Assembly (NCBI GenBank): GCA_037447655.1
Contig: JBBHKE010001538.1
Location: 265,701 to 329,700, forward strand
Reading direction: 5' to 3'
Source of the DNA: Zygnema cylindricum
Taxonomy: Eukaryota > Streptophyta > Zygnematophyceae > Zygnematales > Zygnemataceae
Length of the DNA stretch: 64,000 bases
Within the stretch, counting starts at the first letter, position 1. Each line of letters begins with the position of its first letter. Under the pieces are notes generated by a model. That model was not told the origin of the DNA, searched no databases, and saw nothing but the letters and a program-made list of their open reading frames with translations. Below are positions 32,601 through 59,010 of this stretch, piece after piece. Made by a program: the position numbers and the translations under genes.

Positions 32601-32681
32601 ATGACTATACCGGCATCCTCATCGTCTTCGGTTCCGGCTGTTGTCGCAGAACAACAGGGTGAGACAGTGCAAGCTAACTAA
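32601..32681 (+). pseudogene. gag-start-like peptide after the RLC-6 LTR
   Basis: MTIPASSSSSVPAVVAEQQG runs 26 codons to a stop. A similar stretch (ending PAPVVVEQQF) is embedded at 62086-62149. A gag start after what should be the 3' LTR implies a tandem, LTR-sharing arrangement later cut off by RLG-7. Confidence 0.45.
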
Positions 32682-32723
32682 CAGGATGGTGGGTGGGTAA
32701 AGTAAGTGAGGTAGAATGTGGGT

Positions 32724-33936
32724 TCATCTTCCAAACTTGGAAGATGACAAGGGCTCAGGGGCTACATTGATTTGGTTCTCTTTAAATTTTCGGCCATCCT
32801 TCCCCTCCAGGGTAAGAACCCCTTTGTTAAAAACCTCTAACACCTTCAGAATTACCCGCCCGGCAAAAATGTCAAACATGTCCTTTTTCTGTTGCATCCT
32901 ATACACAAAATCCCCCGGTACAAATCACCGTTGTCGTAGTACAAAATTACCTCTCCGGCGTTGAGAATACCACAACTGATCCTGGTGTTGAGCAGCCTAT
33001 AAATTTACTATAGCGAGAGGGATCTCACGGTGGAAGACTTTGGCTCTATCAGTGATAATTTTCTCGAATGTCCCCTGGTTATCCATTTCCGGGAAGACCA
33101 CTGCTTAGGTCGAAAGAGCGTCGGGCAGGATGGGATGTCGTCCAAATAAAATGAAGTAAAGGCTATAGGAGTGGAGGGAAGCCTGTCGGCTAAACCTGTA
33201 TCCCATGTCAATCCAACGCACCCTTCTGTCCCACTCTCCCAAATCTTCTTCCACTACATACTTTCGTAGTGACCGTTTCACTGTGTGTACGCACCTTTCG
33301 GCCAAACCGTCAGCTTCGGGATGGTCCCGACTAGTCAACCGATGGTCGATGAGGCACAATTTCAAAAGGTTTTAAAATTCTTTGGTGAATTTAGAGCCTT
33401 GGTCAGTGAGAACCTCTGTTTGCGCGCGAAATTGCTATTACACCCTCTACAAAAGGCATTTGCAATCCCCTTGGACTCTTTTCGGGGCAAAACCACCAAC
33501 TCTATCCATTTCGGAAAATGTTCAATCATGACCAGGACGAAACAATTTCCACATTTGCTGTTTGGGAAAGGCCCCAAAAGATCCAGAGACCATCGATAAA
33601 ACATCCCTCGGATGGGAAGAGAATAAAGCTCCGTCCCACCTTTTTTGTCAAAAGTGACTTTAACTCGATCGCAGGAAGAGCAGGTCTGTATAACTCGATT
33701 GACTTGGGTCCGCAACCTGTGCCACCAATACGATCTCGTGATCATGGAAGTGGTCCTTTTCTGTCTGAAATGCATGCATTGCTAATGAAGGCGAGTAATT
33801 AGATTTCTCATTCGACGGGTGGAGGAACCACTTTCCTCGTCCCATCCGCCCATTTTCGGAGGAGAATACCTTGGTCCCAATCATAGGCACCCAGCCTGTC
33901 CTAAACACAGAACAATTGAACTCTAGACAAGTGGGG
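32724..33936 (-). pseudogene. RLG-7 integrase (broken)
   Basis: Zinc-region end seen as CSSCDRVK (33680-33700). Core: MFYRWSLDLLGPFPNS (first Asp), LTDQGSKFTKEF (second Asp, read across a frameshift near 33400), EADGLAERCVHTVKRSL (Glu). The C-terminal part continues as RWIDMGYRFSRQASLHSYSL, FGRHPILPDAL, a GPY/F-like segment FAGRVILKVLEVFNKGVLTLEGKDG and stop at 32724. No chromodomain visible. Solo-2 interrupts the frame between here and RNase H. Confidence 0.85.
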
Positions 33937-33941
33937 AAGAG

Positions 33942-34937
33942 TGTTGAAATTAAAGGTTTACTTAGGTATTTTGTAGGTTACTTAATTGATCTAAATAGGA
34001 GCAAGAAAAAGTAGGCGCAGCCTGCTTCTAACTTTTCTCTCCAACCCCCATACTTGCCATAGTCACTGAAGGCAGGAGAGGAAGCTAGAGCCATGGTTGC
34101 CGATGCTTCCCCTAGAGTCAGAAGGCAACCCTTTGGTAAAACTTACCAAAAAGGTTGACAGACCCAGGATTTGATCTTGGTACCTACCGTCCGTCCAAGT
34201 AGTCTAGTGTCCTTACCATGTAGCCTAGAAACTGTGTTGAAGTATATAGGGTACGATAGCTACTTAAAGAAGTGGAAATAGAGAAGTTCATTTAACTGAC
34301 GAACGGACCACAGTTATATAGACATAGTTAGATAGAATTACATCGAAAAGTACTGCTTGTATTTTTAACGACTATAAATTAAGGCCGATATCAATCGGAC
34401 GGCGGAGGAAGAAGTCGGGATCACGGAATAGAAGATTTGGCGGTTTGCGGTCATACCTACACCGAGTGACACGTGGCAACATGACATTGGATAGCAACAT
34501 CTCCGGGTCATACCATGGGGAACCTGGATATGGCAGGCGTCATCTTCTTGGCCATGTCGTACCTTCGCCGTTCAGAAAGTACTCCGGGCCAAGTACCTTT
34601 CTGTACTGTACAGTGAATTGATTGCCTCGTACTTCAGTAGTAAAGGGATTAGAGAGGGGTTTAGGACTTAGGAAAATTAGAGGTAGCCGCCTCTCTCTCC
34701 CAAAGAACTCCTGAATAAAAGGTCATCTTTGACCATTGATAATAAACTGCTCAGGGAGCAAATTCAAGGATTCTTTTTGTAACAGACTATGGGGAGTCTG
34801 TTCTTGGTGATTTTTTATCAGTCAGTATTCTGTTAAAGTGTCAGTAATACTCACACAAAGACTAAGGGATTGAGGCTATCCTAGGGGCTTTTGGTAAGCT
34901 GCCTACTCTTAGTACCAATGTAGGTCTCAGAGTTAGA
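33942..34937 (+). mobile_element. solo-2: solo copia LTR inside RLG-7
   Basis: 996 bp, TGTTGAAATTAAAG...AGAGTTAGA (final CA changed to GA). Perfect 5-bp target duplication AAGAG at 33937-33941 and 34938-34942. Closest to the RLC-12 LTR. Contains G-box TGACACGTGGC (34467-34477). Confidence 0.92.
34148..34230 (-). other. antisense tRNA-like Pol III cassette (solo-2)
   Basis: Minus strand: A-box-like region near 34215-34230, outer stem GACGGAC / GTCTGTC, T-arm CCAAG-ATCAAAT-CCTGG with one G.T pair, T5 at 34148-34152. Confidence 0.62.
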
Positions 34938-34942
34938 AAGAG

Positions 34943-36640
34943 GTGAACCACGCTGGATAGATTTGAGAGAATCGGGATCATTCCAAATATCTTTCCTTCT
35001 AGCCCCTATTGGTGCCTCCCCCTCCATGTATGCAGCAAAAGTTGACAGTTCCCCCCTAGATGGGGGAAGCCAAATTAAGGCGGAGGAGGCACGGATGATT
35101 CTCAGGATAACTTTGGGGTCCTCATCATGCCGAGCTCGTGTAGAGTGCGAAGTTGAGTGGTCAAGATTTTTGCTCAGTCCATCGGCGTTCCTGTGGATTT
35201 CTCCTGCCCGGTGAAAAATACTGAAATCATATTCTTGCAAGATCAAAACCCATTTGGCGAGTTTGCCGGTTAACTTACTATTCTCTATGATCCATTTGAG
35301 AGGTTGGTGATCAGTAATGAGGGTAAAGTGTGTCCCGTATTGATAGGGACAGAAGTGTTGAATGGCCCAAATCACCGTGAGAAGCTCTCCATGGTAACTG
35401 TTGTAGTTTCCCTCGGCTCTATTATTACTTCTTTTGGCGTAAGCCACCGGATACTTCACTCTGGCGTCATCAATCTGAGCCAAAACTGCCCCCAATCTAA
35501 ACTTGCTCCAGTCGGTGTATAAGAGGAAAGAATTGTGGTGATCAGGCATCCGGAGCACGGGGTGCTCCTTGAGCGCATCCTTCAAGAACCGTAAGGACGT
35601 CTGCTGTTCTTTAGACGACTACCACTCTTGGTGATTCCGCTCTAACTGAATCAGGGGTTGGGCGTGACTGTTGAACTCGGGGATAAATCTTCGATAGTAG
35701 TTGGCCAAACCCAGAAAAGTGCGGAGGGCCGAGATGTCTTGCGCTGGAGGGAGAGAGTCTGGAGCTGCTACCTTGACCATATAGGGGCCCACTATCCCGC
35801 AGGTTACTTCATGTCCAAGGTGAATGATTTTCTGCACCTGAAAGATACCCTTGCCCTGGTGACACTTCAAGCTTGATTCTTGGAGGGCACCGAAGACAAT
35901 CTGGAGATGCTCCAGGTGCTCCTCAAAGGTTTTGGAGAAAATAATGACATCATCAATTTAGCATCCGGCACAATCGATTCCTCGGAGAGCTTTGTCCATC
36001 GCTCGTTGGAATTTTTCTGGAGCATTTTTTAGCCCGAAAGGCGTATAGATACACTCATATAACCCGGACCCTGCCCAAAATGCAGTCCGCTCCTAGTGCT
36101 TCGCTTCTATTGCAATTTGGTGAAACCCATTTTTCATGTCAAGGGTGGAATATATCGTGGCCTCGGCAAGAGATTCGAAGATCTCCGGGGTTGGCATCAA
36201 ATATGGTATGGTGGCGACGTTTAACATACGGCAGTCCCCACACATCCGGAAATCCACAGTTTTCTTGAACGAATCCTTCTTCGGAGGGTGAACGGTCGGG
36301 GAAGCGAACCCGTGTAGTCTTGTACTCTTTTGCACCAAGCCGGCTTCCACCAAAGGTTAGACTTTGCCTGTGATAAATTCTTTTTCTTTGAAGCTGAGAG
36401 AGTACTACTTCTTCTAAACAGTTGCAATCTCGTGTATCAAGTCGATTCTATAAGCGGTCCCCATTTTAAATGCGGACGTCGGTGTGTGACCAGGAAAACA
36501 CCTTTTTGTATCTTTCCAATAGTTCTGAGAGCTGGTCTTTCTTGTGAGGGTCAAGCTGCTCCCCTAAAGTACAATCCATCTTCCCTGGTTCTACTGCCGC
36601 CCATGCTTGCGGTGGTCGGCCCACCGGGTGATATTGAATT
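34943..36640 (-). pseudogene. RLG-7 reverse transcriptase and RNase H (broken)
   Basis: Pre-RT segment QLSELLERYKKVFSWSHTDV (36495-36560), then LVEAGLVQKSTRLHGFASPTV, DFRMCGDCRMLN, YSTLDMKNGFHQIAI, FGLKNAPEKFQRAMDKAL. The catalytic box reads stop-IDDVIIFS in place of YIDD (near 35955). Then LGHEVTCGIVG, LRTFLGLANYYRRFIPEFN. A 234-codon open stretch (34881-35585) covers RNase H: LYTDWSKFRLGAVLAQ, ELLTVIWAIQHF, LITDHQPLKWI, HRNADGLSKN. The last ~20 codons of that stretch read into solo-2. Typical Ty3/gypsy RT-RH of normal length. Confidence 0.9.
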
Positions 36641-36917
36641 TGAGTCCTACTTGTTGGTTTACTCCTTCCCCTCGTGATATGACGCTACTGTTGACAACTT
36701 CCGCTAAGTTTTATTCTTCCAAGCCTCCTCTCCCCCCCACTGAGGGAACCTTTAAGTCATGTGAAATTTTTAAGTTTCTTTTTTTTGTCTCTCTCCCCCC
36801 CTCAAGTTGCAAAGTGGACTGCATGGCTAACAATTTTGGAGCTTAAAGGTAGATAGTTCTAGATTTTGGAGATTTGAGCCTAGAAAAGGCAAGAGAATTT
36901 TAAGACCCATGTGACGC

Positions 36918-37207
36918 ATTCAAGTCAATACTCGTTCCTATTAAGCTACACCGCTTGAAGTCTTAAATACCGAGTGTCGCTGTGGTATCCGGATGAAATC
37001 CCATCGCTTGTTCTTGTTCTGCAATTATTGGTGCTTTCCAAATTTTTGTTGTATTGTAAAAGATCATTCCCATTGCTCCCTTTTGATATGCATGGCTGTT
37101 CGAGAAGGAAACCAAAGTTGAAAGCGCTCGACGTGGAAATCCTAGCTTGATGCACCAGAAGAAAGGGGGATGGTCGGTTAAAAGTTGGAAGCGCTCGACG
37201 TGGAAAC
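36918..37207 (-). pseudogene. RLG-7 C5-cytosine methyltransferase, C-terminal part
   Basis: Continuation of the domain at 46597-47310 after RLC-8. Read on the minus strand: KLGFPRRALSTLVSFSNSHAY (37100-37160), AEQEQAMGFHPDTTATLGI (36967-37023), then, after a stop, DFKRCSLIGTSIDLN (36918-36962). The last two match methyltransferase motifs IX-X (ERExLMGF..T, then R...LGNxxD). A stop interrupts between them. A ~70-bp segment around PPFF..KLGFPRRAL occurs twice, the first copy being split by RLC-8. Confidence 0.78.
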
Positions 37208-38382
37208 TGAAACTCTGAGACCTCCATTGGCCCTCAGAGTATGCAGATCCAAAAGAAGCTAATCTAGATAGTGCCGACTCCAAGTTAATATAAACCCAAA
37301 TGACTGACCCCTTGACAGTCACAATCCCAATATAGATTCACCCCTGTGAAATAACACTTTCTGTGTGCTCAGTTCCACCACAAAATGCAAAGTTAGAATA
37401 TGAGATTTGGACACATTCACCCACTTTGACTTTCCCTTAGAAATACAACCACCCTGGCAGACAAAAACTCTGACCGACTACACCCCTGTGTAGCCTGGAC
37501 TCCCCTGAGTCCGCAGCAAAAAGAATCACTGTAAATGGTCAAATAAATTGATAGTTATGGCTGGCCAAAGTTTGCCATTTATACAAGGTGCTCTCTGGGA
37601 GAGGCAGCAATCTACCCAAAATTTTCTAAGTCCTATTCCCTCTCTAAAACTCTATCTATTGAAGTACGGCACCAATCAAATTACTGTGTCGTACAGAAAA
37701 GTGCAGGTGCCGGTGTACTTTCTATACGGCCATTGTACGACATGGCCAAAATGTCGACACGTGTCAAATCAGGATTAGTTCCTGTAATCTCCGGAATCCC
37801 CGTAATCCAATGTTATCATGCCACGTGTCATCTGACGTGTAAAATACCGTAAAACGCCAAAAGTACCTTTTCCGTGATCGTGGCGCCTATAGCGGCCGTC
37901 CGATCAAAACCGGCTATAATCCTAGCCGCTGAAATTCGACGCGCGGTATTTGTTTCGCTATCGAAACAAATGCGCGATATCCATTATGTCCGCGTACCGT
38001 ACTACGCACTAATTCAAACTGTATCCAAGCACTAAGTATCTATTCGCCGTTAAACGAATTAATCTACATGTAACGATTTATATATTTACCAAATCTAATA
38101 TATCGTAATATGTGTCCTAGCCTAACGGTCAGAGCTAATGTTTGTGTGAAATTGGCGGACGGCAGGTACCAGGATCAATTCCTGGGTCCGGCAACTAACT
38201 TTTAGTAAATATATCTAATCCACCCCATGTCTTCTCTAATGAGCTTTAGGCAGCCATGGCTCTAGCTCCCTATCAAGCCTTCAGTGACTACAACAAGTGT
38301 GGGGGCTTGGAGTAAGGAGTTAGGGACAGACTGCCTTTGCTCTTTATCTATAAAGACCTAAAAAATACTCAAATATCAACAC
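37208..38382 (-). repeat. RLC-8 3' LTR
   Basis: TGTTGATATTTGAG...CAGAGTTTCA in element sense. Polypurine tract CTAGAAAATAAGTGGAG at 38383-38399. G-box GCCACGTGTC (37820-37829). GTAC cluster 37660-37740. Confidence 0.92.
38116..38203 (+). other. antisense tRNA-like Pol III cassette (RLC-8 3' LTR)
   Basis: A-box-like TAGCCTAACGGTCAGAGC (38118-38135). Outer stem TTGGCGGAC / GTCCGGCAA (38152-38160 with 38186-38194, one mismatch). T-arm CCAGG-ATCAATT-CCTGG (38169-38185), 5 bp with 7-nt loop. T4 at 38200-38203. Confidence 0.7.
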
Positions 38383-38454
38383 TCCACTTATTTTCTAGTC
38401 TACTTTTTTCAACTCTTATAAACAAAAAACAAACACTCCTTCCCCTATTTTTTT

Positions 38455-39622
38455 TTATTTTTTTTTTCTTCTTCTTTTCCTTTTTCTTTTCCTTTTATAA
38501 AACTTATGAAAAATAGTGTCGTATTTAAAACAATGCATTAGATGAAGTGAAATAATAATTGCATCACACATTTCATTTAGCACCTCACTTATCATAAATC
38601 CGATCAAAGATTTTATCCACCTCCTCACGTTTTCATCTAACCAGAATCTACTTTCCCATTTGCATTTCCAACAGTCAGCCCCATCCCCAACCTGTAACAC
38701 ATATCCGGATGATAACCCTTTTACAGGCACATCTTCACAAGTGACATCACACCAAGTAGTGATGTCAAATCCATCCACCCCCAAATATTCCCAAAAAACA
38801 CTAGTCCCCACTAAGTTCCTCATAAGATCTACACCTTTCGTACTCATATTTTTATCCATGATAATTACCCCATTTTCTGAACTTCCCTCACTCTCTCCCA
38901 TGGAATTCTTTCTACTATTACTTTCTAATTTAATTCCCAATAAATATTTCTTCTCCGCTAAACCTTTAATCAAATATTTCTCTTCTCCCCTATCCTTTAA
39001 AACCTCTTCGAGTTTCACTTCTCCCCTTTCCTCGGAATCCGTTGAAGTCTCCCTTTCCGACCAGTTTTCTGTTTTTTTATTATCTATAAAATTATCCTGA
39101 TTAATTTTATCTTTCTCGTTTTCACTTATCGATCCTATAACAGACTTTCTTATTTCTAAGTCATACACTCTACACTCCTCGACATCCTCAAGTACGTCCT
39201 CTCTCTTTACTTCCCTTATACCTCCAAAAGCACACTGTTGCCTTCGTGCAATTACTATGTGCTTTTCTCTCTTCCCCATACTACTAATCCAGAGAAGCTC
39301 TAAAATATCTTCATCCTCTTTCTCCTCTTCCCATTCTTCCTCCTCATCCACATTCCAACTTCTAAGTTTTTCCAAACAAGGGCATTCCTCCATATAATGA
39401 CCCGGTTCCCTACAAAAGAAGCAAACCCCCTTTTTCAAAGCTCCCCTTTCTTTTCTTCTCCCTCTCTTTCCACCAAAGTTCCGATAAGGTTTACCTTTGT
39501 CTTTCTTTCTCTCATCACGCTTCCGCTCGTCACCACCGTTCCTCTCATCACGCTTCCGCTCGTCACCACCGTTCCTCTCATCACGCTTCCGCTCGTCACC
39601 ACCGTTCCTCTCATCACGCTTC
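38455..39622 (-). CDS. RLC-8 gag C-terminus and pol relic (split by RLC-9)
   Basis: Downstream part of the RLC-8 structural protein. It starts in the RKRDER repeats, then zinc knuckle CFFCREPGHYMEEC, an acidic tract and the same shrunken pol segments as RLC-4: RQQCAFGGIREV, ECRVYDLEIRK, GLAEKKYLLGI, GYVLQVGDGADCWKCKWE, RRWIKSLIGF and a Lys/Arg-rich tail. The frame agrees across the RLC-9 insertion with 44611-45442, so before RLC-9 arrived this was one open frame of about 665 codons. Read now, it starts spuriously from the RLC-9 LTR (39642). Confidence 0.85.
39509..39622 (-). repeat. 33-bp tandem repeats in RLC-8 gag
   Basis: Near-perfect units encoding GGDERKRDERN; about four copies, the outermost cut by the RLC-9 insertion (target duplication GCTTC lies inside the repeat). 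Confidence 0.87.
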
Positions 39623-39939
39623 TGTAACTCTGAGACCTCCATAGAACCTCAGAGTAGGCAGCTCACACGAAGCCTCTAGGATAACCCTGACCCCTTTGTG
39701 TTTCAGCAAGAATAACTGCCACCCTGGCAAACAAAAACTCAGACCACCTTCACCCCTGTAAAGGCAAGACTCCCCTGAGTCTATAGCAAAAAGAATCTCT
39801 GAATTTGCTCCCCTCTTCAACCTTCAGTGACTACAACAACTGTGGGAGCTGAAGAGAGAAGTTAGAGGCAGACTGCCTCGGCTTCTTTTCTGCATTTTGC
39901 AAAACCTAGAAAATACTAAAATAACCTTTTATTTCTACA
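39623..39939 (-). repeat. RLC-9 3' LTR (317 bp, U3 promoter deleted)
   Basis: In element sense: the first ~125 bp match the start of relatives' LTRs (to ..CACTGAAGGTTGAA), then a jump to GAGGGGAGCAAATTCAGAG, the presumed start of R. The rest matches their U5. Polypurine tract at 39940-39956. Confidence 0.92.
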
Positions 39940-39982
39940 CTCCCCTTATTTTGTAGTCACTTTTTATTTTAAGACCACACTT

Positions 39983-40765
39983 CTACCGGCAGAAAATTAA
40001 TTTAGGGGAATGAACAGGTTTGGTCATCATATCAGCTACCATTTCACTATCTGGTTTATACTCCAAACTGATTATCTTGTTTTCTACTTTCTCCCTAACA
40101 AAGCTAAGCCTAATGTCCATGTGTTTGGCTTTAAAGTGATGTTTAGGATTGGCACAAATGGCAATGGCAGCCTGATTATCACAAAACACTTTTTGGACAC
40201 CACTCTTAAGTTGACCAAGCTCACCTAGCAAAGACTTGACCCACATTAATTCTTTTACAGCAGAGCAAGAAGCCATGTACTTAGCCTCCATGGTGGACTG
40301 AGCAATGACCTTTTGCTGCTTGCTGCTCCAGCAGCAAGCCCCATCACCCACATACAATACATATCCAGATGTGCATCTCCTCATAAGAGCATCCCCATAG
40401 CTGGCATCACTCCAAGTGGTGATGTCAGTATTTTTCCCACCCAAATGCAACCATAGATCCCTAGTTCCTATGAGATATCTAAGGACTCTCTTAGCTGCCT
40501 CCTAATCTTTCTTAGTGGGAGCATTCAGACTCCTACTTAGTATTTCTACAGCTGCGGCTATGTCCGGACGGGTATAATTTATAAAATATATTAGGCTGCC
40601 CACTACTTGCCTATAAGGGATGGTCTGCATAAATCTTTTCTCTTCCGGGCTTACCTCATCATCTAAGATTATAACTCCCTCTTCCTCACTCCCCTCACTT
40701 CCCTTCTTTAAATCCATAGGAGTGGTACAACTATTAGCCTTGTCCATTTGGAATTTTTCTAACAT
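39983..40765 (-). pseudogene. RLC-9 RNase H (two open pieces)
   Basis: Ribonuclease H of the copia pol polyprotein. 40502-40765: MLEKFQMDKANSCTTPMDL to YINYTRPDIAAAVEILSRSLNAPTKKD, then TAG replaces the family Trp codon. 39983-40450: TDITTWSDASYGDALMRRCTSGYVLYVGDGACCWSS, AQSTMEAKYMASCSAVKELMWVKSLL, VFCDNQAAIAICANPKHHFKAKHMDIRLSFVREKVENK, ending VHSPKLIF next to the polypurine tract. One catalytic-region change: EAEYMA has become EAKYMA. Separated from the main frame by a shift in a GA run. Confidence 0.9.
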
Positions 40766-40797
40766 GTTTCCAATGGCCTCTTTTTGAGTTAATCTGA

Positions 40798-43700
40798 TTA
40801 TCTTTCTCTCTCTCTGTCCCTTTCTACCTGAATTCCCAAAATATACCTTGCTTCTCCCATATCCTTCATCTCAAATCTTCCTTTTAAATCATTTTTCAAC
40901 TTATTTATTTTATCCATAGATTTACTTAAAACAAGCAAATCATCGACATAAATTGCAATAAAAATAATTCCTTCCTCATCTTCAAACAAATATATAGAGT
41001 GATCTGAGCTGATCCGAATATATCCCAAACGTGTAAGAAACTCATCGAGCTTTTTGTTCCATTGCTGGGGCGCCTGTTTCAGCCCATACAAAGATTTGAT
41101 CAATCGGCATACCTTGCTTTCCTCCCCTTGCTCCACAAATCCTTCAGGCTGTCGCATAAAAATTTCCTCTTCGAACTCTCCATGTAGGAAGGCCGTCTTG
41201 ATGTCCATCTGATGCACTTCCATGTCTTCTGCTGCCGCCATACTGAGAAGTATCCGAACCGAAGGAAACCTAACGACCGAAGCAAAAGTCTCCTCGTAGT
41301 CAATTCCCTCTTTCTGGGTTAATCCCTTCGCCACTAACCGAGCCTTGTAGCGCTCAATGGTGTTATCCGGGTAGAGTTTCATCTTAAATACCCACTTACA
41401 CCCAATTGGCTTCCTGTCAGGAGGACAATCCACAAATTCCCATGTATCGGCCGCCATAATTGAGGCCATCTCCTCATTTATGGCTGTTTTCCACCGGTTT
41501 CTTTCAAGACAAGTCATTGCCTCATTATAAGTTTGAGGTTCATCGCGGTGAGACAGTTTGGTTACCTTATTGTTAACTTGTCTCTCTTGCAGTCTTTTGC
41601 TGCTTCTTCTTCCTCCCTCAAACTCGGTTGCCGAAATAGATGGTTCTCTTGGATTTTTCCGAACAGTTTCTAATTCTCCCCTATCCCTTGATTCCGGGTC
41701 GATTTCCACCACGTCTTCCGCTTCGGTTGGAGTTAATACAAAGGGTTCCACATTTGGGTCCTTCTCGATCTGATCCGTACCTGCAAGATTATCATCTTCT
41801 TGAAATCCTGGATAGTTAGGAAGCTCAAAGTCATCAGAATTTTCTGACTCAAATTTGATCTTGACTGTCCTTGTATGCTTAAAGGGATCAATAGATTTTC
41901 CTTCATCCATAACCACTAGATGCTTCTCTAGAATAATATCCTCTCTTTTGAGATCATAGACTCTATATCCTTTTACATCTTGATCATATCCTAGTAGATA
42001 TCCTGGTTTTCCTTTTGGGTCTAACTTCCAGTTTGACCGATCTGTGTCTAAACTGAACACTTGACTACCGAAAACCTTTAAGTGTGAAACATCTAGTTTT
42101 CGGCCTGTCCATCTCTCATAAGGTGTTTGGCCTTTTACTGTTGAAGTAAGAACTCTATTTTTGAGATAATTTGCACAGTTCATTGCTTCGGCCCAAAACT
42201 TCTTTCCTATCTTCTTATCGGACAGCATACTCATAGCACTATCACTCAGTGTTCTATTAAATCTTTCAGCTACACCATTCTGCTGAGGATTTTCAGGAAC
42301 TGTCTTTTGGTGTTGCACTCCATCTTCTCTCAAAAAATCCTCAAACTGGTTAGAGGTATACTCGCCACCATTGTCACTCCTTACTCTCTTGATTGAGGTT
42401 TCATGGAGTTTTTTACACCATGCTTTATATTGTTTAAAACATTCCTGAGCCTCTGACTTTTTTTTCAAAATATACACTCTGGAATATCGAGACCAATCAT
42501 CGGTGATAGTCATCATAAATCTTTTCCCCCCGGGTGATGGCACTCTGGCCGGCCCCCAAATATCTGTGTGTACTAAATCTAGAATCTTTTCTCCCTTATA
42601 GGTGGCAGTTTTTGGGAAGGGCAACCTGTGTGCTTTACCTTGAGCACATCCCCTACAATCACTTAGATTCTCACTTTCACCGAACTGAATCCCTTCCACT
42701 ACTCCCATCTTTTTCATCTCTCTTAACTTATCTAGATTCACATGCCCAAGCCTCTTATGCCACAACATTATATCTTGAACACCAGCATAATAAAGTTTCT
42801 TCTTTTCATTGCTTAAAATCAGCCTAAACATCCCTTGGCTACCTTTTTCAGCAGTGAAATAAACTTCCTCCTCAAAGCTAGCAGTAAAGACTCCTTTCCT
42901 AGTGCTAGTATCAAAACCCTTATCATCTAAAACAGACGTAGAGATGAGGTTTTTGTTCAGCTCCGGAATAAACAACACATCGGAGAATGTAACTATAGAT
43001 GTCTTTCCTTCTACTAACACTTTTAGATCTACCGATCCTACAAGAGTAGTAGTGACTATCCTCCCATCCTCGTACTCTATCTCTACGGTGGGAATCTTTC
43101 GTATCTTAGTGAACAGGTGTTTATCTTTACACATGTGCATGGATGCTCCTGAATCTACAATCCAGCCTGCTTCACCTTTCAATCCACCGAAAGCACATTT
43201 CTGTTTTCGTGGAATTTCGACCTCGTTTTTCATTTCCAACTCCTCATCCAATAGGAGTTCATCGTCCTCGTCCTCGGAATCCGCCTCATGTACCTGCGTC
43301 ACAAGGGCCTTTTTCTTTCCTCTCGCAGGTCCACCAGTGTGCCCCTCCTTTAACCGCAGCTCGGTTAACTTAGTGCATTCAACCATATAGTGCCCGGGTT
43401 TCTTACAAAAATGGCACAGTCCCTTAGGAGTCCTTGGTCCGAACTCCTCGGTCTGATTTTTTTGCCCCTCCCCTCGATAATTTCCAACCTGTTTTCTAAA
43501 ATCATTGTTTTGCCAATCGGTCCCGGCTGCTAAAGCTTGCCCACTCTTTCCTCCCCTTCGGATCTCAATTGTATTCTCGCGAACGAGAATCATCCCTACC
43601 ACTGAATTCCAAATCCACCTTGGGTTCGCCAAGTCCTGCACACGGTTGACTATGTTCTCGAACTCCTCGGGTAACTTCATCAGTAAACAGTTAACCTTTT

Positions 43701-44313
43701 CCTTTTCACTAAATACTTTTCCAGCACTTTCTAGTTCCATGAAAAGTGTAGCAAGCTCATTGCAAAAATCCAACATCTTCCCCCCTTTGTACACATACTC
43801 CTTAATTTTCTGATCAGCCAACTGTTGTTGCTGAATCGTACCACTTCGATACATCTCTATGAGAGCCATCCAAAGATCAGATGCCCTCTCTACTTGCAAA
43901 TGGGGAGATGCAAGCCCTTGAGTAAGATGGCGGAGGATGAAGTGCTTAGCCGCCATATTGTTGTAGTCCCACGTATCGATATCATTCTCCTCGTTCCTCA
44001 GAATAGGTGACATGAATGCCGAACCGGCTGCTATTGGTGTGACCGTCTCCTTCTCCTTGCCTTTGTCCACCACCTCTCCTTCCTTTGTCTCCTGCGTTGA
44101 AGATGAATCTGCATCTCTAGTGAATTTTCCTCCTGTAAACCCTGGAGGTATCCCGAGATTGGATGGACGCCTCACCCGTCCACTCACTATTCCCCAAAAC
44201 CGTTTCTCACATAGAGCTCCTGTCATCATACTTTCCCAGTATATGAAGCCAGCTCCATTGAATATGGGCACCCTAGATGGTGGGCCCATAACGTGTAACT
44301 CTAAGACCTCCAT
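40798..44313 (-). CDS. RLC-9 gag-protease-integrase-RT polyprotein (1171 codons)
   Basis: The best-preserved autonomous protein in the window. Starts MEVLELHVMGPPSR; the first ATG is in the LTR, Met9 is the PBS ATG. Approximate residues: 120-230 gag core (HFILRHLTQGL; MLDFCNELATLFMELESAGK); ~300 zinc knuckle CHFCKKPGHYMVEC; ~384 protease GWIVDSGASMHMC; ~519 integrase zinc box WHKRLGHVNLDKL with CRGCAQGK; DDE core LVHTDIWGPA, VRSDNGGEYTSNQF (~645), NGVAERFNRT; RT WVFKMKLYPDNT, HQMDIKTAFLHGEFEEEIFM, LYGLKQAPQQWN, YVDDLLVLSKS (~1121), MKDMGEARYILGIQVERDR. Then a GA-run frameshift adds a false end. Gag and pol share one frame, so no frameshift is needed between them. Confidence 0.93.
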   Translation of the reverse strand: MEVLELHVMGPPSRVPIFNGAGFIYWESMMTGALCEKRFWGIVSGRVRRPSNLGIPPGFTGGKFTRDADSSSTQETKEGEVVDKGKEKETVTPIAAGSAFMSPILRNEENDIDTWDYNNMAAKHFILRHLTQGLASPHLQVERASDLWMALIEMYRSGTIQQQQLADQKIKEYVYKGGKMLDFCNELATLFMELESAGKVFSEKEKVNCLLMKLPEEFENIVNRVQDLANPRWIWNSVVGMILVRENTIEIRRGGKSGQALAAGTDWQNNDFRKQVGNYRGEGQKNQTEEFGPRTPKGLCHFCKKPGHYMVECTKLTELRLKEGHTGGPARGKKKALVTQVHEADSEDEDDELLLDEELEMKNEVEIPRKQKCAFGGLKGEAGWIVDSGASMHMCKDKHLFTKIRKIPTVEIEYEDGRIVTTTLVGSVDLKVLVEGKTSIVTFSDVLFIPELNKNLISTSVLDDKGFDTSTRKGVFTASFEEEVYFTAEKGSQGMFRLILSNEKKKLYYAGVQDIMLWHKRLGHVNLDKLREMKKMGVVEGIQFGESENLSDCRGCAQGKAHRLPFPKTATYKGEKILDLVHTDIWGPARVPSPGGKRFMMTITDDWSRYSRVYILKKKSEAQECFKQYKAWCKKLHETSIKRVRSDNGGEYTSNQFEDFLREDGVQHQKTVPENPQQNGVAERFNRTLSDSAMSMLSDKKIGKKFWAEAMNCANYLKNRVLTSTVKGQTPYERWTGRKLDVSHLKVFGSQVFSLDTDRSNWKLDPKGKPGYLLGYDQDVKGYRVYDLKREDIILEKHLVVMDEGKSIDPFKHTRTVKIKFESENSDDFELPNYPGFQEDDNLAGTDQIEKDPNVEPFVLTPTEAEDVVEIDPESRDRGELETVRKNPREPSISATEFEGGRRSSKRLQERQVNNKVTKLSHRDEPQTYNEAMTCLERNRWKTAINEEMASIMAADTWEFVDCPPDRKPIGCKWVFKMKLYPDNTIERYKARLVAKGLTQKEGIDYEETFASVVRFPSVRILLSMAAAEDMEVHQMDIKTAFLHGEFEEEIFMRQPEGFVEQGEESKVCRLIKSLYGLKQAPQQWNKKLDEFLTRLGYIRISSDHSIYLFEDEEGIIFIAIYVDDLLVLSKSMDKINKLKNDLKGRFEMKDMGEARYILGIQVERDRERER
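44279..44293 (-). other. primer-binding site (RLC-9)
   Basis: CGTTATGGGCCCACC in element sense; first base differs from the tRNA-Met match, the other 14 fit. Confidence 0.77.
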
Positions 44314-44610
44314 AGAACCTCAGAGTAGGCAGCTCACACGAAGCCTCTAGGATAACCCTGACCCCTTTGTGTTTCAGCAAGAATAACTGCCACCCTGGCA
44401 AACAAAAATTCAGACCACCTTCACCCCTGTAAAGGCAAGACTCCCCTGAGTCTATAGCAAAAAGAATCTCTGAATTTGCTCCCCTCTTCAACCTTCAGTG
44501 ACTACGACAAGTGTGGGAGCTGAAGAGAGAAGTTAGAGGCAGACTGCCTCGGCTTCTTTTCTGCATTTTGCAAAACCTAGAAAATACTAAAATAACCTTT
44601 TATTTCTACA
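44294..44610 (-). repeat. RLC-9 5' LTR (317 bp, U3 promoter deleted)
   Basis: Same internal deletion junction as 39623-39939. Ends AGAGTTACA at the PBS. Confidence 0.92.
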
Positions 44611-45442
44611 GCTTCCGCCAATCACCACTAGCTGAAAATGCATTGACCCTGTCCCTTCCCCTACAAAGCTCCAAAGTGCTTTCCCTCACAAGAATTATCC
44701 CCATGGTAAAGCTCCAAGTCCATGAGGAGCCATCCATTGCCTGCATACGACAAATTATGTTTTCGTACTCATCTGGGAGTTTCAAAATTAGTGTATTAAT
44801 CTTACTCTCCTCAGATTCTACATATCCCGCACTAGTAAGCTCAACATATAATGCAGCAATATCATTGCAAAACTCTATCATGCTACCGCCTTTAAAAACG
44901 TAGGCATCTATTTCCTGTTTTACTAATTGCTGCCTCTGAATAGTCTCACTCTTATAAATCTGAGTTAGTGCTTCCCATATCTCTGAAGACTTGGTTAGAC
45001 TTAAAAGAGTGATAGCTATCAACTTAGACACATATCTAAGTATGAGATGTTTTGCTATAGTGTTTTTGTATTCCCATATTTTCCTATCATTTTCTTCAGT
45101 TTTAATCCCTACATGTGGTACCATAGCTGAGAGCCTAGCTCCCCTCACCATAGGTGTCCCTTTTTCCTTCTCCCCTATTTCCCCATCCACGGAAAGGTTT
45201 TTCCCTTCACCTTCCGTTGCATCTGAACTCCGGATGATATTCTCGGCAATCTCAGATGATTCTCCGTAGTAAGCTCCTCCAAAGCCAGGTGGCGGACATC
45301 TCACTTGTCCCGCAACAATTCCCCATAAGTGCTTCTCGAAAAGCAATCCCTCCATTGTAAACGCCCAATACGTGAAGCCTGTTCCATCAAACATAGGCAC
45401 CCTAGATGGTGGGCCCATAACTTGAAACTCTAAGACCTCCAT
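44611..45442 (-). CDS. RLC-8 gag N-terminus (split by RLC-9)
   Basis: MEVLEFQVMGPPSRVPMFDG start (first ATG in the LTR), FTYWAFTMEGLLFEKHLWGI box, spacer, then gag core TLLSLTKSSEIWEALTQIYK and MIEFCNDIAALYVELTSAGY, ILKLPDEYENIICRM, and the first RKRDER repeat, where RLC-9 lies. Open throughout; close to RLC-4 gag. Confidence 0.87.
45408..45422 (-). other. primer-binding site (RLC-8)
   Basis: AGTTATGGGCCCACC in element sense: 14 of 15 match the tRNA-Met anticodon-arm complement. Confidence 0.77.
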
Positions 45443-46596
45443 TGGCCCTCAGAGTATGCAGATCCAAAAGAAGCTAATCTAGATAGTGCCGACTCCAAGT
45501 TAATATAAACCCAAATGACTGACCCCTTGACAGTCACAATCCCAATATAGATTCACCCCTGTGAAATAACACTTTCTGTGTGCTCAGTTCCACCACAGAA
45601 TGCAAAGTTAGAATATGAGATTTGGACACATTCACCCACTTTGACTTTCCCTTAGAAATGCAGCCACCCTGGCAGACAAAAACTCTTACCGACTACACCC
45701 CTGTGTAGCCTAGACTCCCCTGAGTCCGCAGCAAAAAGAATCACTGAAAATGGTCAAGTAAATTGATAGTTATGGCTGGCCAAAGTTTGCCATTTATACA
45801 AGGTGCTCTCTGGGAGAGGCAGCAATCTACCCAAAATTTTCTAAGTCCTATTCCCTCTCTAAAACTCTATCTATTGAAGTACGGCACCAATCAAATTACT
45901 GTGTCGTACAGAAAAGTACAGGTGCCGGTGTACTTTCTATACGGCCATTGTACGACATGGCCAAAATGTCGACACGTGTCAAATCAGGATTAGTTCCTGT
46001 AATCTCTGGAATCCCCGTAATCCAATGTTATCATGCCACGTGTCATCTGACGTGTCAAAAACCGTAAAACGCCAAAAGTACCTTTTCCTTGATCGCGGCG
46101 CCTATAGCGGCCGTCCGATCAAAACTGGCTATAATCCTAGCTGCTGAAATTCGACACGCGGTATTTGTTTCGCTATCGAAACAAATGCGCGATATCCGTT
46201 CTGTCCGCGTACCGTACTACGCACTAATTCAAACAGTATCTATGCACTAAGTATCTATTCGCCGTTAAACGAATTAATCTACATGTAACGATTTATATAT
46301 TTACCAAATCTAATATATCGTAATATGTGTCCTAGCCTAACGGTCAGAGCTAATGTCTGTGTGAAATTGGCGGACGGCAAGTACCAGGATCAATTCCTGG
46401 GTCCGGCAACTAACTTTTAGTAAATATATCTAATCCACCCCATGTCTTCTCTAATGAGCTTTAGGCAGCCATGGCTCTAGCTCCCTATCAAGCCTTCAGT
46501 GACTACAACAAGTGTGGGGGCTTGGAGAAGGGAGTTAGGGACAGACTGCCTTTGCTCTTTTTCTATAAAGACCTAGAAAATACTCAAATATCAACA
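45423..46596 (-). repeat. RLC-8 5' LTR
   Basis: 1174 bp, about 97% identical to 37208-38382. GTAC cluster at 45880-45955 (four or more GTAC words), G-box GCCACGTGTC at 46035-46044. TATA-like TATAAATGG near 45792 (minus). Confidence 0.92.
46333..46418 (+). other. antisense tRNA-like Pol III cassette (RLC-8 5' LTR)
   Basis: Same as 38116-38203: A-box-like TAGCCTAACGGTCAGAGC, outer stem, T-arm CCAGG/CCTGG, T4 at 46415-46418. Confidence 0.7.
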
Positions 46597-47310
46597 AAAA
46601 CCCTAGCTTATTGTACTGGAAGAAAGGGGGACAGTCAGTTTTTGTCACGGGCGTTGCCATTCGCTTTTTCCCGAGGATTTGCTACACAAGATTTTCGGGG
46701 TTGGGGATCTATTTCTCTAACAACTTCTTGAGGATGGGAAGAGGGATAAGATTTGTCAAATAAGCCATAACTCCGTGGGCCCGAGATCCCATCTGTGTTG
46801 CATCGAAGACCAATGGAGCTTCTAAAATCTGGGTGATTTGATTCAGCTATTGGCCACATGTCTTCGTTGATCATCCCCCAAGTGGACATTTTCTGAAACG
46901 TACCCAAATTGCGTGTGTGTCCATGAGATTAACTGTACCATTTGAAAAAATGTTCTACTCTTGTTGTCTTTATGCCCTTTTCCTTGTCCGGCTAGGGAGT
47001 ATCCCTAACAAGGCCATTGCGCCTCTACCATATCTATTTGTCCCAGGCTGGCTAGATGAGGTGTCATGATGTTATCCACGTCCTGGGGAAGACTCCGATG
47101 AGCTCTAGAAATTGCCGACACTGGGAGCTGTTGAGGATATAGTTGGTGAAATTGTTGAAGGCGGTGTTCACTGACGGCTCGGGCTTTCGGGGATATTTCC
47201 ACTGCTACATAGGTTTCCACTTTTTATCCTGCTTTCAAAACCACCTCCAAATCACAAGTGATTCCCGAGAATAGAGATAGAATCTTGAGACCTCGATTAG
47301 GAATTTTGAA
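46597..47310 (-). pseudogene. RLG-7 C5-cytosine DNA methyltransferase, N-terminal part
   Basis: Predicted SAM-dependent cytosine-5 methyltransferase domain in a Ty3/gypsy pol. Minus strand, in order: KILSLFSGI (47260-47286, motif I, SAM binding); YVAVEISPKARAVSEHRL (motif II-like); IDMVEAQWPC (motif IV, catalytic Cys codon 47008-47010), followed by a stop and GYSLAGQGKG..D..SR; FGYVSENV (motif VI, ENV at 46885-46893); after a frameshift FDATQMGSRAHG (motif VIII-like QxRxR region, 46770-46800); TNLIPLPILKKLL; PVTKTDCPPFFQYNKLG, where RLC-8 enters. It sits between protease and RT. Stops and at least one frameshift make this copy dead. A host methyltransferase gene fragment is unlikely because both flanks are RLG-7 pol. 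Confidence 0.82.
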
Positions 47311-47607
47311 TGACACCACTTGTCAGTTGAGTTTCTTACTTTCGGACGTGATCATCGAAGAATTTGACCGAAGGTGTGAAATTGTTTTGTTCTGTAATAT
47401 TGTTGAAAAAGCCTGATCCACTTCCCGCCGAAGTGTTCTAAATTGTAATAATCGGTCTTGATATTCCTTTTCCCACCGTTTGGAAATACGGAACTGCTAA
47501 ATGACATCGACAATATTTGCGAAGTTGGCGAGCACTTCTGACGGAGTGGAAGTTGCAAAAATAGGGTAACATCCGCAAACTAGAGCATTTGCTTTACCTC
47601 GGTTCCA

Positions 47608-48082
47608 TTAATCTAATGGTACCACCTCCTTGGTCCCTTCCGGATCCTTGGGGTCTCGAACAGTAAACAGCTCTTTCCACACACTTAATTCCATATTCAG
47701 CCTTGTCCAGGTAGCCATCCCCAACACAATTTCAAATTGCTTCCCTTCCACCACCACGAATGGAAGCTCAATTCGGACTTGTTGTCCCACGTTATTAGCA
47801 ATTTCAATGGACATGTTCTAAAAAATTCCTAGCACTGGCTGGTTTCCATTACTTACTGTGCTCAGGCATATGTCGCCTTGGCAGATTTCAAGCCTGAGTT
47901 TTTCTGGCATGTGCTGTAAAGCCAAGGTAGTGATCAGATTCGGGAGCGCCCCCTGTGTCGACCACGACGTCCAGATAGCCTCTATATCCGTTGAGTTTGA
48001 AATTGGCGGTCCGATTGAGGATGAGTTCCACCAATAATGCCTTGTAATCCTTATCCATCATAGGGTTCTTGGGATCTACCAT
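47608..48082 (-). pseudogene. RLG-7 aspartic protease (broken)
   Basis: Minus strand: LVELILNRTANFKLNGYRG, then active site DVVVDTGGAPESDHYL (DTGG, near 47960). A frameshift follows, then PEKLRLEICQGDICLSTVSNG, a stop, and MSIEIANNVGQQVRIELPFVVVEGKQFEIVLGMATW, ending KEVVPLD near 47608. Consistent with a retropepsin. The segment 47311-47607, between protease and methyltransferase, is a degraded linker with no recognised domain. Gag would lie upstream but is cut off at 48085. Confidence 0.78.
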
Positions 48083-58014: not shown

Positions 58015-59010
58015 TGTTGAAATTAGAAGGCTTTCTTATGTATTTTCTAGGTTTCTTAAGTAATCTAAGATGACGAAGGAAAAAGCTGAGGCAGCTTGCT
58101 TCTAACTTTTCTCTTTATTCCCTATACTTGTTGTAGTCACTGGAGGCTGAAGAAGAAGCTAGAGCCATGGCTGCCTATGCTTCTCCTAGAGTCAGAAGGC
58201 AATCCTTTTTTAAACTTACCAAAAAGGCTAACGGACCCAGGAATTCATCTTGGTACCTACCGTCCGTCCAAATAGCCCAACATCGTTACCCTGTAGCCTA
58301 GCACGTTTGTCGAAGTATATAGGGTACGATAGCTACTTAAAGATGTGCAAAGAGGAAAGCTCATTTAACTAACGAACAGACCACAATCACATAGACACAG
58401 TTAGACACAATCACATCGAAAAGTAATGCTTGTATTTTAACAGCTATAAATTAAGGTCGATATCAATCGGACAACGAAGGAAGAAGCCGACATTGCGGAA
58501 TGAACGTTTTGGCGGTTTTTGATCACAGCCACACCAAGTGACACGTGGCAACTTGACATTGGATGGCGCCATCTGCAGGACATACCATGTCGAACCCGAA
58601 CATGGCAAGCGTCGTCTCCTTAGCCATGGCGTACAATGGCCTTACAGAAAGTACTCGCCAAGTACCTTATTGTACTATACACTGAATTGATTGGCTCCGT
58701 ATTTCAATAGTAGAGGGTTAAAAGAGGGGTTCAGGACTTAGAAAATATAGGTTGGAGCTTTTCTCCCATAACGCTTCTGTATAAAAAGGCATCTTTGACC
58801 ATTGATAATTAACTGCTCAAGGGAGCAAATTCAAGGATTCTTTTTGTGGCAGACTTAAGGGAAAAAGCTCTACCAAAGGTTTCACTTTCGTCAATTTATA
58901 TTCTGTCATAGTGTCAACAATACTCATACAAAGACTAAGGGATCGAGGTTATCCTAGAGGCTTCTGGTAAGCTGCCTACTCTGAGTACCAATGGATGTCT
59001 CAGAAGTACA
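58015..59010 (+). repeat. RLC-12 5' LTR
   Basis: 996 bp, TGTTGAAATTAGAAGG...AGAAGTACA. Closest to solo-2. G-box TGACACGTGGC (58540-58550). TATAAAAA at 58771-58778. Confidence 0.88.
58221..58305 (-). other. antisense tRNA-like Pol III cassette (RLC-12)
   Basis: Minus strand: A-box-like region near 58290-58305, outer stem GACGGAC / GTCCGTT, T-arm CCAAG-ATGAATT-CCTGG, T5 at 58221-58225. Confidence 0.62.

Follow-up and report, generated by a model that had tools for sequence, protein, structure and literature searches.

The closest described system is KnitGypsy-Dnmt3 of the charophyte Klebsormidium nitens (de Mendoza et al. 2018; PMC5890265). The sections of that paper devoted to it describe a Gypsy element with a Dnmt3 in Pol, a DIRS-type repeat structure combined with Gypsy domains (Fig. 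4 legend) and purifying selection (ratio of non-synonymous to synonymous substitution, Ka/Ks, < 0.2), and the Dnmt3 of the K. nitens lineage is presented as an independent acquisition. According to the same sections, SymbioDIRS-Dnmt3 and SymbioLINE-Dnmt of Symbiodinium are likewise retrotransposons bearing a C5-cytosine DNA methyltransferase (DNMT), the DIRS type using Dnmt3, but they are a tyrosine-recombinase DIRS element and a LINE rather than Gypsy elements and are given as independent captures; two SymbioDIRS DNMT3s carried out de novo CpG methylation in yeast. The relevant part of PMC12344493 also describes retrotransposon DNMT3s, naming long terminal repeat (LTR) Copia and DIRS elements where PMC5890265 says Gypsy. 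The element analysed here, RLG-7, lies on the minus strand of a 64,000-nucleotide stretch of the Zygnema cylindricum genome (contig JBBHKE010001538.1, 265,701 bp–329,700 bp; hereafter the window) and very probably belongs, as a dead copy, to a Ty3/gypsy family that carries a DNMT3-type DNMT in Pol between protease (PR) and reverse transcriptase (RT).

A first-pass annotation of the window had proposed a Ty3/gypsy element with a C5-cytosine DNMT between PR and RT, and had noted that methyltransferase capture was known from a charophyte and from dinoflagellates. The first proposal was upheld by a PF00145 match and by colinearity with two relatives, and the second by PMC5890265, as far as its sections cited above go, which lessens the surprise of the present element. 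The RLG-7 family resembles KnitGypsy-Dnmt3 in its Gypsy domains, its unrearranged Dnmt3-type domain in Pol, its purifying selection and its DIRS-like repeats; the comparison was made with the published description and not with K. nitens sequence, and the KnitGypsy text in those sections states neither domain order nor a PHD finger. The combination of Gypsy domains, a Dnmt3 within Pol and DIRS-like repeats is already known from that description, and the element here is a further member. Where the published cases are one charophyte and dinoflagellates, what is added is another genome in which numerous copies range from open frames through successive degrees of decay, a Gypsy polyprotein of the same layout and with the same domain in the liverwort Marchantia, broadly congruent trees, a PHD-like end and the PR-DNMT-RT order.

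Alignment of the window with the open pol of L001, a relative in the same genome, revealed a single colinear Ty3/gypsy pol region, in pieces, running on the minus strand from ~48076 bp down to ~32654 bp (Table 1). The order was PR, DNMT (47451 bp–46598 bp), a Copia insertion, the DNMT C-terminus with RT and RNase H (37175 bp–34932 bp), an LTR-like segment, integrase and a remnant of the pol C-terminus. The same order was recovered with P0001 (1494 aa), a JGI metagenome protein named site-specific DNA-cytosine methylase, which showed 60% identity to both main integrase pieces. The PR-RT-RNase H-integrase order, the Gypsy-type RT and RNase H and the DDE integrase, taken over the window pieces and the L001 pol, place the element in Ty3/gypsy (Metaviridae). 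Both flanks of the DNMT named in the first-pass annotation were recovered: the retropepsin, then recognised by its DTGG motif alone, was matched in two frames by the L001 PR open reading frame (ORF), and Pfam matched RT, RNase H and the zinc domain of the integrase. Stop codons were found in DNMT (five), RT (three), RNase H (one) and integrase (nine), in several frames, and the copy in the window is dead, as had been claimed. It is cut off at ~48099/48100 bp, where a truncated Copia fragment starts. As neither of the two ORFs upstream in L001 had a match in the window, RLG-7 is without its 5′ end and gag. Neither Rfam families nor tRNA genes were found when the window was scanned for them.

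The six methyltransferase peptides reported earlier were located, within a few bases, where they had been placed. With stops read as X, the DNMT N-terminal piece matched PF00145 at 29.2 bits (cut-off 22), as the proposed check required, and TIGR00675 at 9.3e-11, under that model's full-length cut-off; the middle and C-terminal pieces alone had no methylase match in Pfam. All three pieces were colinear with the DNMTs of P0001 and L001, and motifs I, IV, VI, VIII and IX-X, by the numbering that we assume for them, followed one another in order, as in C5-cytosine DNMTs. A profile made from the DNMTs of P0001 and the Marchantia protein P0095 matched four window translations (best 2.8e-38) and returned nothing at E ≤1 from 20 windows shuffled in 12-bp blocks, which rules out chance motif matches.

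The DNMT was assigned to DNMT3: the top profile and predicted-fold matches were DNMT3, the motif order was unrearranged and DNMT2 scored far lower. Its catalytic domain is thus of the type found in plant and animal DNMT3s, and the structure prediction suggested earlier gave the same fold; the catalytic loop was PCQ, with PCN in the DNMT3 chains aligned, a difference from those chains. An origin from DRM was rejected, since motif I preceded motifs IV-X in the window and its relatives, contrary to the circularly permuted order; DRM, which is rearranged, also scored lower. The 50 matches listed in the VIA structure comparison included no DRM or DNMT1 chain, which excludes neither. Foldseek, run against viral models, placed a methyltransferase from a phage at the top (E 1.8e-14, 23% identity), which was read as a common fold; the DNMT may or may not be of viral origin, as this match of predicted folds neither demonstrates nor excludes it. 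Two protein searches with the DNMT pieces alone produced 228 candidates, of which none passed E 1e-3, and 64, of which none passed E 1e-2, and scans of viral contig and genome contig collections found no relative.

A host methyltransferase gene or fragment that had landed by chance in or beside a Gypsy element would fit the single broken copy in the window, and was weighed against the relatives of RLG-7. The same genome (352.8 Mb, 2689 contigs) was searched with P0001, and 31 of 8978 candidates were scored, so that the counts are lower bounds. At least 39 match rows were obtained, 21 of the 39 covering at least 100 DNMT residues (P0001 residues 30–345; hand count). Three rows that started at RT (C895, C1515 and C1920) proved to have DNMT once the flank was read, the reading of flanks among RT-start rows being confined to these three. 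A DNMT row was present in all 12 places aligned, namely the eight best P0001 matches, three further copies and the window. L001 and L002 had open frames of 1505 and 1510 codons that encoded DNMT-RT-RNase H-integrase. The PC, ENV and GSRAHR motifs were intact in L001, L002 and L036, with GSRAYR in L026.

From 5′ to 3′, L001 consisted of repeat A, an ORF of uncharacterised kind, a gag-like ORF (one zinc-knuckle motif and one incomplete, by eye; no Pfam match), a PR ORF (Asp_protease_2, E 1.6e-4, slightly under the Pfam cut-off), an in-frame stop, DNMT-RT-RNase H-integrase and, last, a PHD-like region rich in cysteine (Pfam 2.4e-4 and 4.3e-3, neither reaching the cut-off). Dnmt3 was inside the Gypsy Pol frame in L001, L002 and P0001; in C895, compared by hand, DNMT and RT were in different frames. 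Membership of DIRS was rejected, as an integrase core (rve) was found in place of a tyrosine recombinase and no recombinase family was found in pol, PR or the two upstream ORFs.

An RT-based protein search returned 405 matches. PF00145 was precomputed for two of the best 120 and the DNMT profile flagged four of them (P0001, P0095, P0061 and P0008), several of the 120 starting shortly before RT with the upstream part outside view. P0095 (M. polymorpha MARPO_0091s0058; recorded as 'hypothetical protein, partial') had a DSGA motif (presumed PR), DNMT, RT and RNase H in one frame, with 42% identity to L001 in DNMT and 54% in RT-RNase H. P0001 had DNMT-RT-RNase H-integrase in one frame, although the end of the 4.7-kb contig that encodes it may have truncated its N-terminus, and P0008 held the C-terminal half of DNMT only. 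The DNMT thus precedes RT in P0001, P0008 and P0095 as it does in L001, which weakens the earlier view that the PR-DNMT-RT placement is unusual. The colinear open frames of relatives bearing the same domain, found by the genome search that had been suggested, refute chance insertion of a host gene fragment, an explanation that we regard as extremely improbable. A different layout was seen in P0061, a distant Gypsy protein (ENA source) with DNMT at residues 1168–1500 between RNase H and integrase (RT-RNase H-DNMT-integrase) and EC replacing the catalytic PC. A PHD finger (PF00628, precomputed) was present in 17 of the 19 nearest Gypsy relatives listed as P0002–P0020. No report of a Marchantia or Zygnema copy of a DNMT-bearing Gypsy element was found in the open-access literature searched, which is not proof of absence.

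Phylogenetic analysis grouped the window copy with L005, L006 and a second copy on C173 (support 0.865 for DNMT and 0.896 for RT-RNase H). The genome copies other than C895 and C1515 formed one cluster; P0001 lay outside it, and Marchantia, P0008 and P0061 were more distant still. The RT of C895 and C1515 was left out of the RT-RNase H tree; in the DNMT tree they fell on the P0001 side, and the P0001 DNMT showed 57% identity to theirs and 45–51% to that of the main subfamily of this genome. Built from few sequences, the DNMT and RT trees appear broadly congruent. The RT-RNase H of P0095 was 84% identical to that of P0009 from the liverwort Calypogeia fissa, the upstream part of which lay outside view. 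We tentatively suggest a single DNMT3 capture in this Gypsy lineage before the liverwort and Zygnema lineages split, the enzyme having been carried and selected with RT since; the Klebsormidium element would then be a single branch within an ancient DNMT-bearing, split-repeat family spanning the streptophytes, which also has a PHD-like chromatin reader. A capture independent of that in Klebsormidium is a somewhat doubtful alternative. The independent acquisition of which PMC5890265 writes in the sections cited speaks for it, as does the position of the DNMT in P0061, but DNMT class, superfamily and kind of split repeat are all shared with the Klebsormidium element as described there, and for Marchantia, P0001 and the copies in this genome the two trees, of DNMT and of RT, are in broad agreement.

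Between L001 and L002 the ratio of non-synonymous to synonymous substitution rates (dN/dS) was 0.133 in DNMT, on a level with the 0.125 in RT, and was 0.070 in RNase H, 0.097 in integrase and 0.42 in the linker. Sixteen chosen pairs were compared, of which seven were saturated in dS and nine yielded a DNMT ratio: 0.133, 0.219, 0.129, 0.165, 0.122, 0.162, 0.130 (L006 and the window, dS 1.5), 0.065 (dS 2.7) and 0.618, the last from C895 and C1515, which are near-identical with six differences. The RT ratio was 0.062 to 0.284 in those of the nine pairs that held RT. On these ratios, selection acting on the element lineage seems to have retained the DNMT, also in the lineage of the window copy before its death. 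As far as sequence comparison goes, these results show that the DNMT recurs in the family as a module maintained by selection in the Zygnema genome, and that open copies have kept its catalytic motifs intact.

Cytosine methylation is a main means by which hosts silence transposons, and a transposon that retains a selected methyltransferase is, given this, a paradox. The overall explanation that we favour, and consider likely, is that the DNMT is selected in Pol; it may methylate the complementary DNA (cDNA) of the element itself. The DNMT would be made as part of Pol, would enter the particle together with RT and integrase and would methylate the double-stranded cDNA before or at integration, probably at CpG as for DNMT3-type enzymes, which would help the copy to enter or persist in a methylating host. 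The cDNA step, taken by itself, is proposed with reserve. Several observations weigh against this explanation. Between L006 and the window the DNMT ratio was higher than those of RT (0.062) and RNase H (0.099), while lower than that of integrase (0.204), and over longer distances the DNMT protein diverged faster than RT (51% vs 77% identity between L001 and P0001). Eight of the nine pairs contain a decayed or partial copy, and the lowest ratio and that of the L006-window pair come with the high dS values given above. Additionally, dS was uneven between domains in the L001–L004 pair, which suggests exchange between copies. CpG depletion, sought as a mark of self-methylation, was not found in ten family pieces (observed/expected 0.60–0.78; three stretches elsewhere in the window gave 0.55–0.62, and an LTR of RLC-8, described below, 0.85). 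The Klebsormidium DNMT produced no methylation in yeast, a result that its authors term inconclusive (PMC5890265, sections cited).

The CpG and yeast results also agree with retention of the DNMT for some other job, such as methylating RNA, binding nucleic acid inside the particle or interfering with the chromatin of the host; RNA methylation was considered for SymbioLINE by the same authors in those sections, and distant P0061 lacks the catalytic PC. The DNMT3-type profile and fold, with the far lower DNMT2 scores, and the intact motifs of L001, L002 and L036 make such a job rather unlikely. Methylation by the element of its own integrated copies or of host loci, leading to self-silencing and less damage to the host, would be in line with the host-benefit role raised in PMC5890265, as far as cited here, and with the PHD-like Pol end, which could read chromatin; it is nonetheless unlikely, as element-level selection for self-harm is hard to sustain. 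The many copies and the liverwort protein make two questions approachable: whether the target of the enzyme is cDNA, as we favour, chromatin or RNA, and whether the capture was single and old.

Analysis of the element ends revealed a 1186 bp repeat A, starting TGTCAAGC, at the 5′ end and, at the 3′ end, a 331 bp repeat B (ending CTCGACA), a second A and a shorter B′ of ~200 bp. Twelve copies were read with their flanks. The entire A-coding-B-A-B′ arrangement was present in C1769, in C1718 (second A shortened to 988 bp, with an inverted A piece alongside) and in C1374, where two B copies are separated by 3.7 kb of unrelated sequence (L010:334–4049). Repeat A was on both sides of the coding region in these 3 of 12 copies, with extra B and B′ at the 3′ side; the window copy itself is cut off. 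The arrangement was partial in C2630 and C2623 and not complete in seven of the 12 (C544, C1156, C173, C895, C1515, C961 and C2086). Diverged A matches (71–77%) were found in C2623, C1156 and C2086, and none in C895 or C1515. These are DIRS-like repeats of the KnitGypsy-Dnmt3 kind, complete in C1769 and C1718, and their arrangement differs from the product of ordinary LTR reverse transcription. A target-site duplication was sought in four copies; AATT was seen in C1769 and none in C1374, C1718 or C544. Split terminal repeats of this form, here belonging to a Gypsy element whose integrase is of the DDE type, were observed in L009, L010, L016, L017, L031 and L032.

Table 1. Features of RLG-7 and its insertions in the window (positions in bp; percentages are identities)
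Feature	Position	Strand	Evidence
Retropepsin-like protease remnant of RLG-7	47500..48076	-	two frames, 48076-47942 and 47952-47500; L001 PR ORF 64% and 68%, E 3.7e-71
Linker and DNMT N-terminal part, motifs I, IV (catalytic PC), VI (ENV)	46846..47451	-	PF00145 8.3e-7; P0001 48%; L001 60%
DNMT middle part, motif VIII (GSRAH), other frame	46598..46843	-	P0001 43%; L001 59%
RLC-8, later Copia insertion within DNMT	37208..46596	-	1174-bp LTRs 37208-38381 and 45423-46596, 97.6% identical
DNMT C-terminal part, motifs IX-X region	36905..37175	-	within 67% match to L001 residues 276-1039; P0001 38%; 36905 computed by hand from alignment
Reverse transcriptase, with stops	35600..36353	-	PF00078 6.3e-19; P0001 63%, E 1.3e-96
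RNase H	34932..35585	-	PF17917 6.6e-30
LTR-like segment (probably a solo LTR) separating RNase H from integrase, not part of RLG-7	33942..34931	.	80.6% to 58015-59004; no match in P0001 or the pol of L001
Integrase (H2C2, core, C-terminal), three pieces	32757..33939	-	Integrase_H2C2 5.6e-9; L001 57-81%
Pol C-terminus remnant (start of PHD-like region)	32654..32827	-	L001 pol 1408-1463, 47%, E 1e-9

The Copia element RLC-8, which splits the DNMT, had been said to have entered later on the evidence of its target duplication. The flanks, GAAAC and AAAAC, agree at only 4 of 5 bases; because this duplication is imperfect, later entry is retained mainly on the protein colinearity across the insert. 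On the left side of RLC-8, in the DNMT beside the insertion point, there is a tandem duplication of ~67 bp (37107 bp–37207 bp with 46597 bp–46640 bp), which accounts for a 13-residue overlap of the DNMT pieces. Nested within RLC-8 is another Copia element (39623 bp–44610 bp) with 317-bp repeats (39623 bp–39939 bp and 44294 bp–44610 bp; 98.7% identical) and an open frame of 1171 codons (40798 bp–44313 bp), which appears young. Outside RLG-7, a plus-strand Copia element with 1054-bp repeats (96.3% identical) was found between 49679 bp and 56136 bp, apparently inside the minus-strand Copia that is cut off at 48100 bp against RLG-7.

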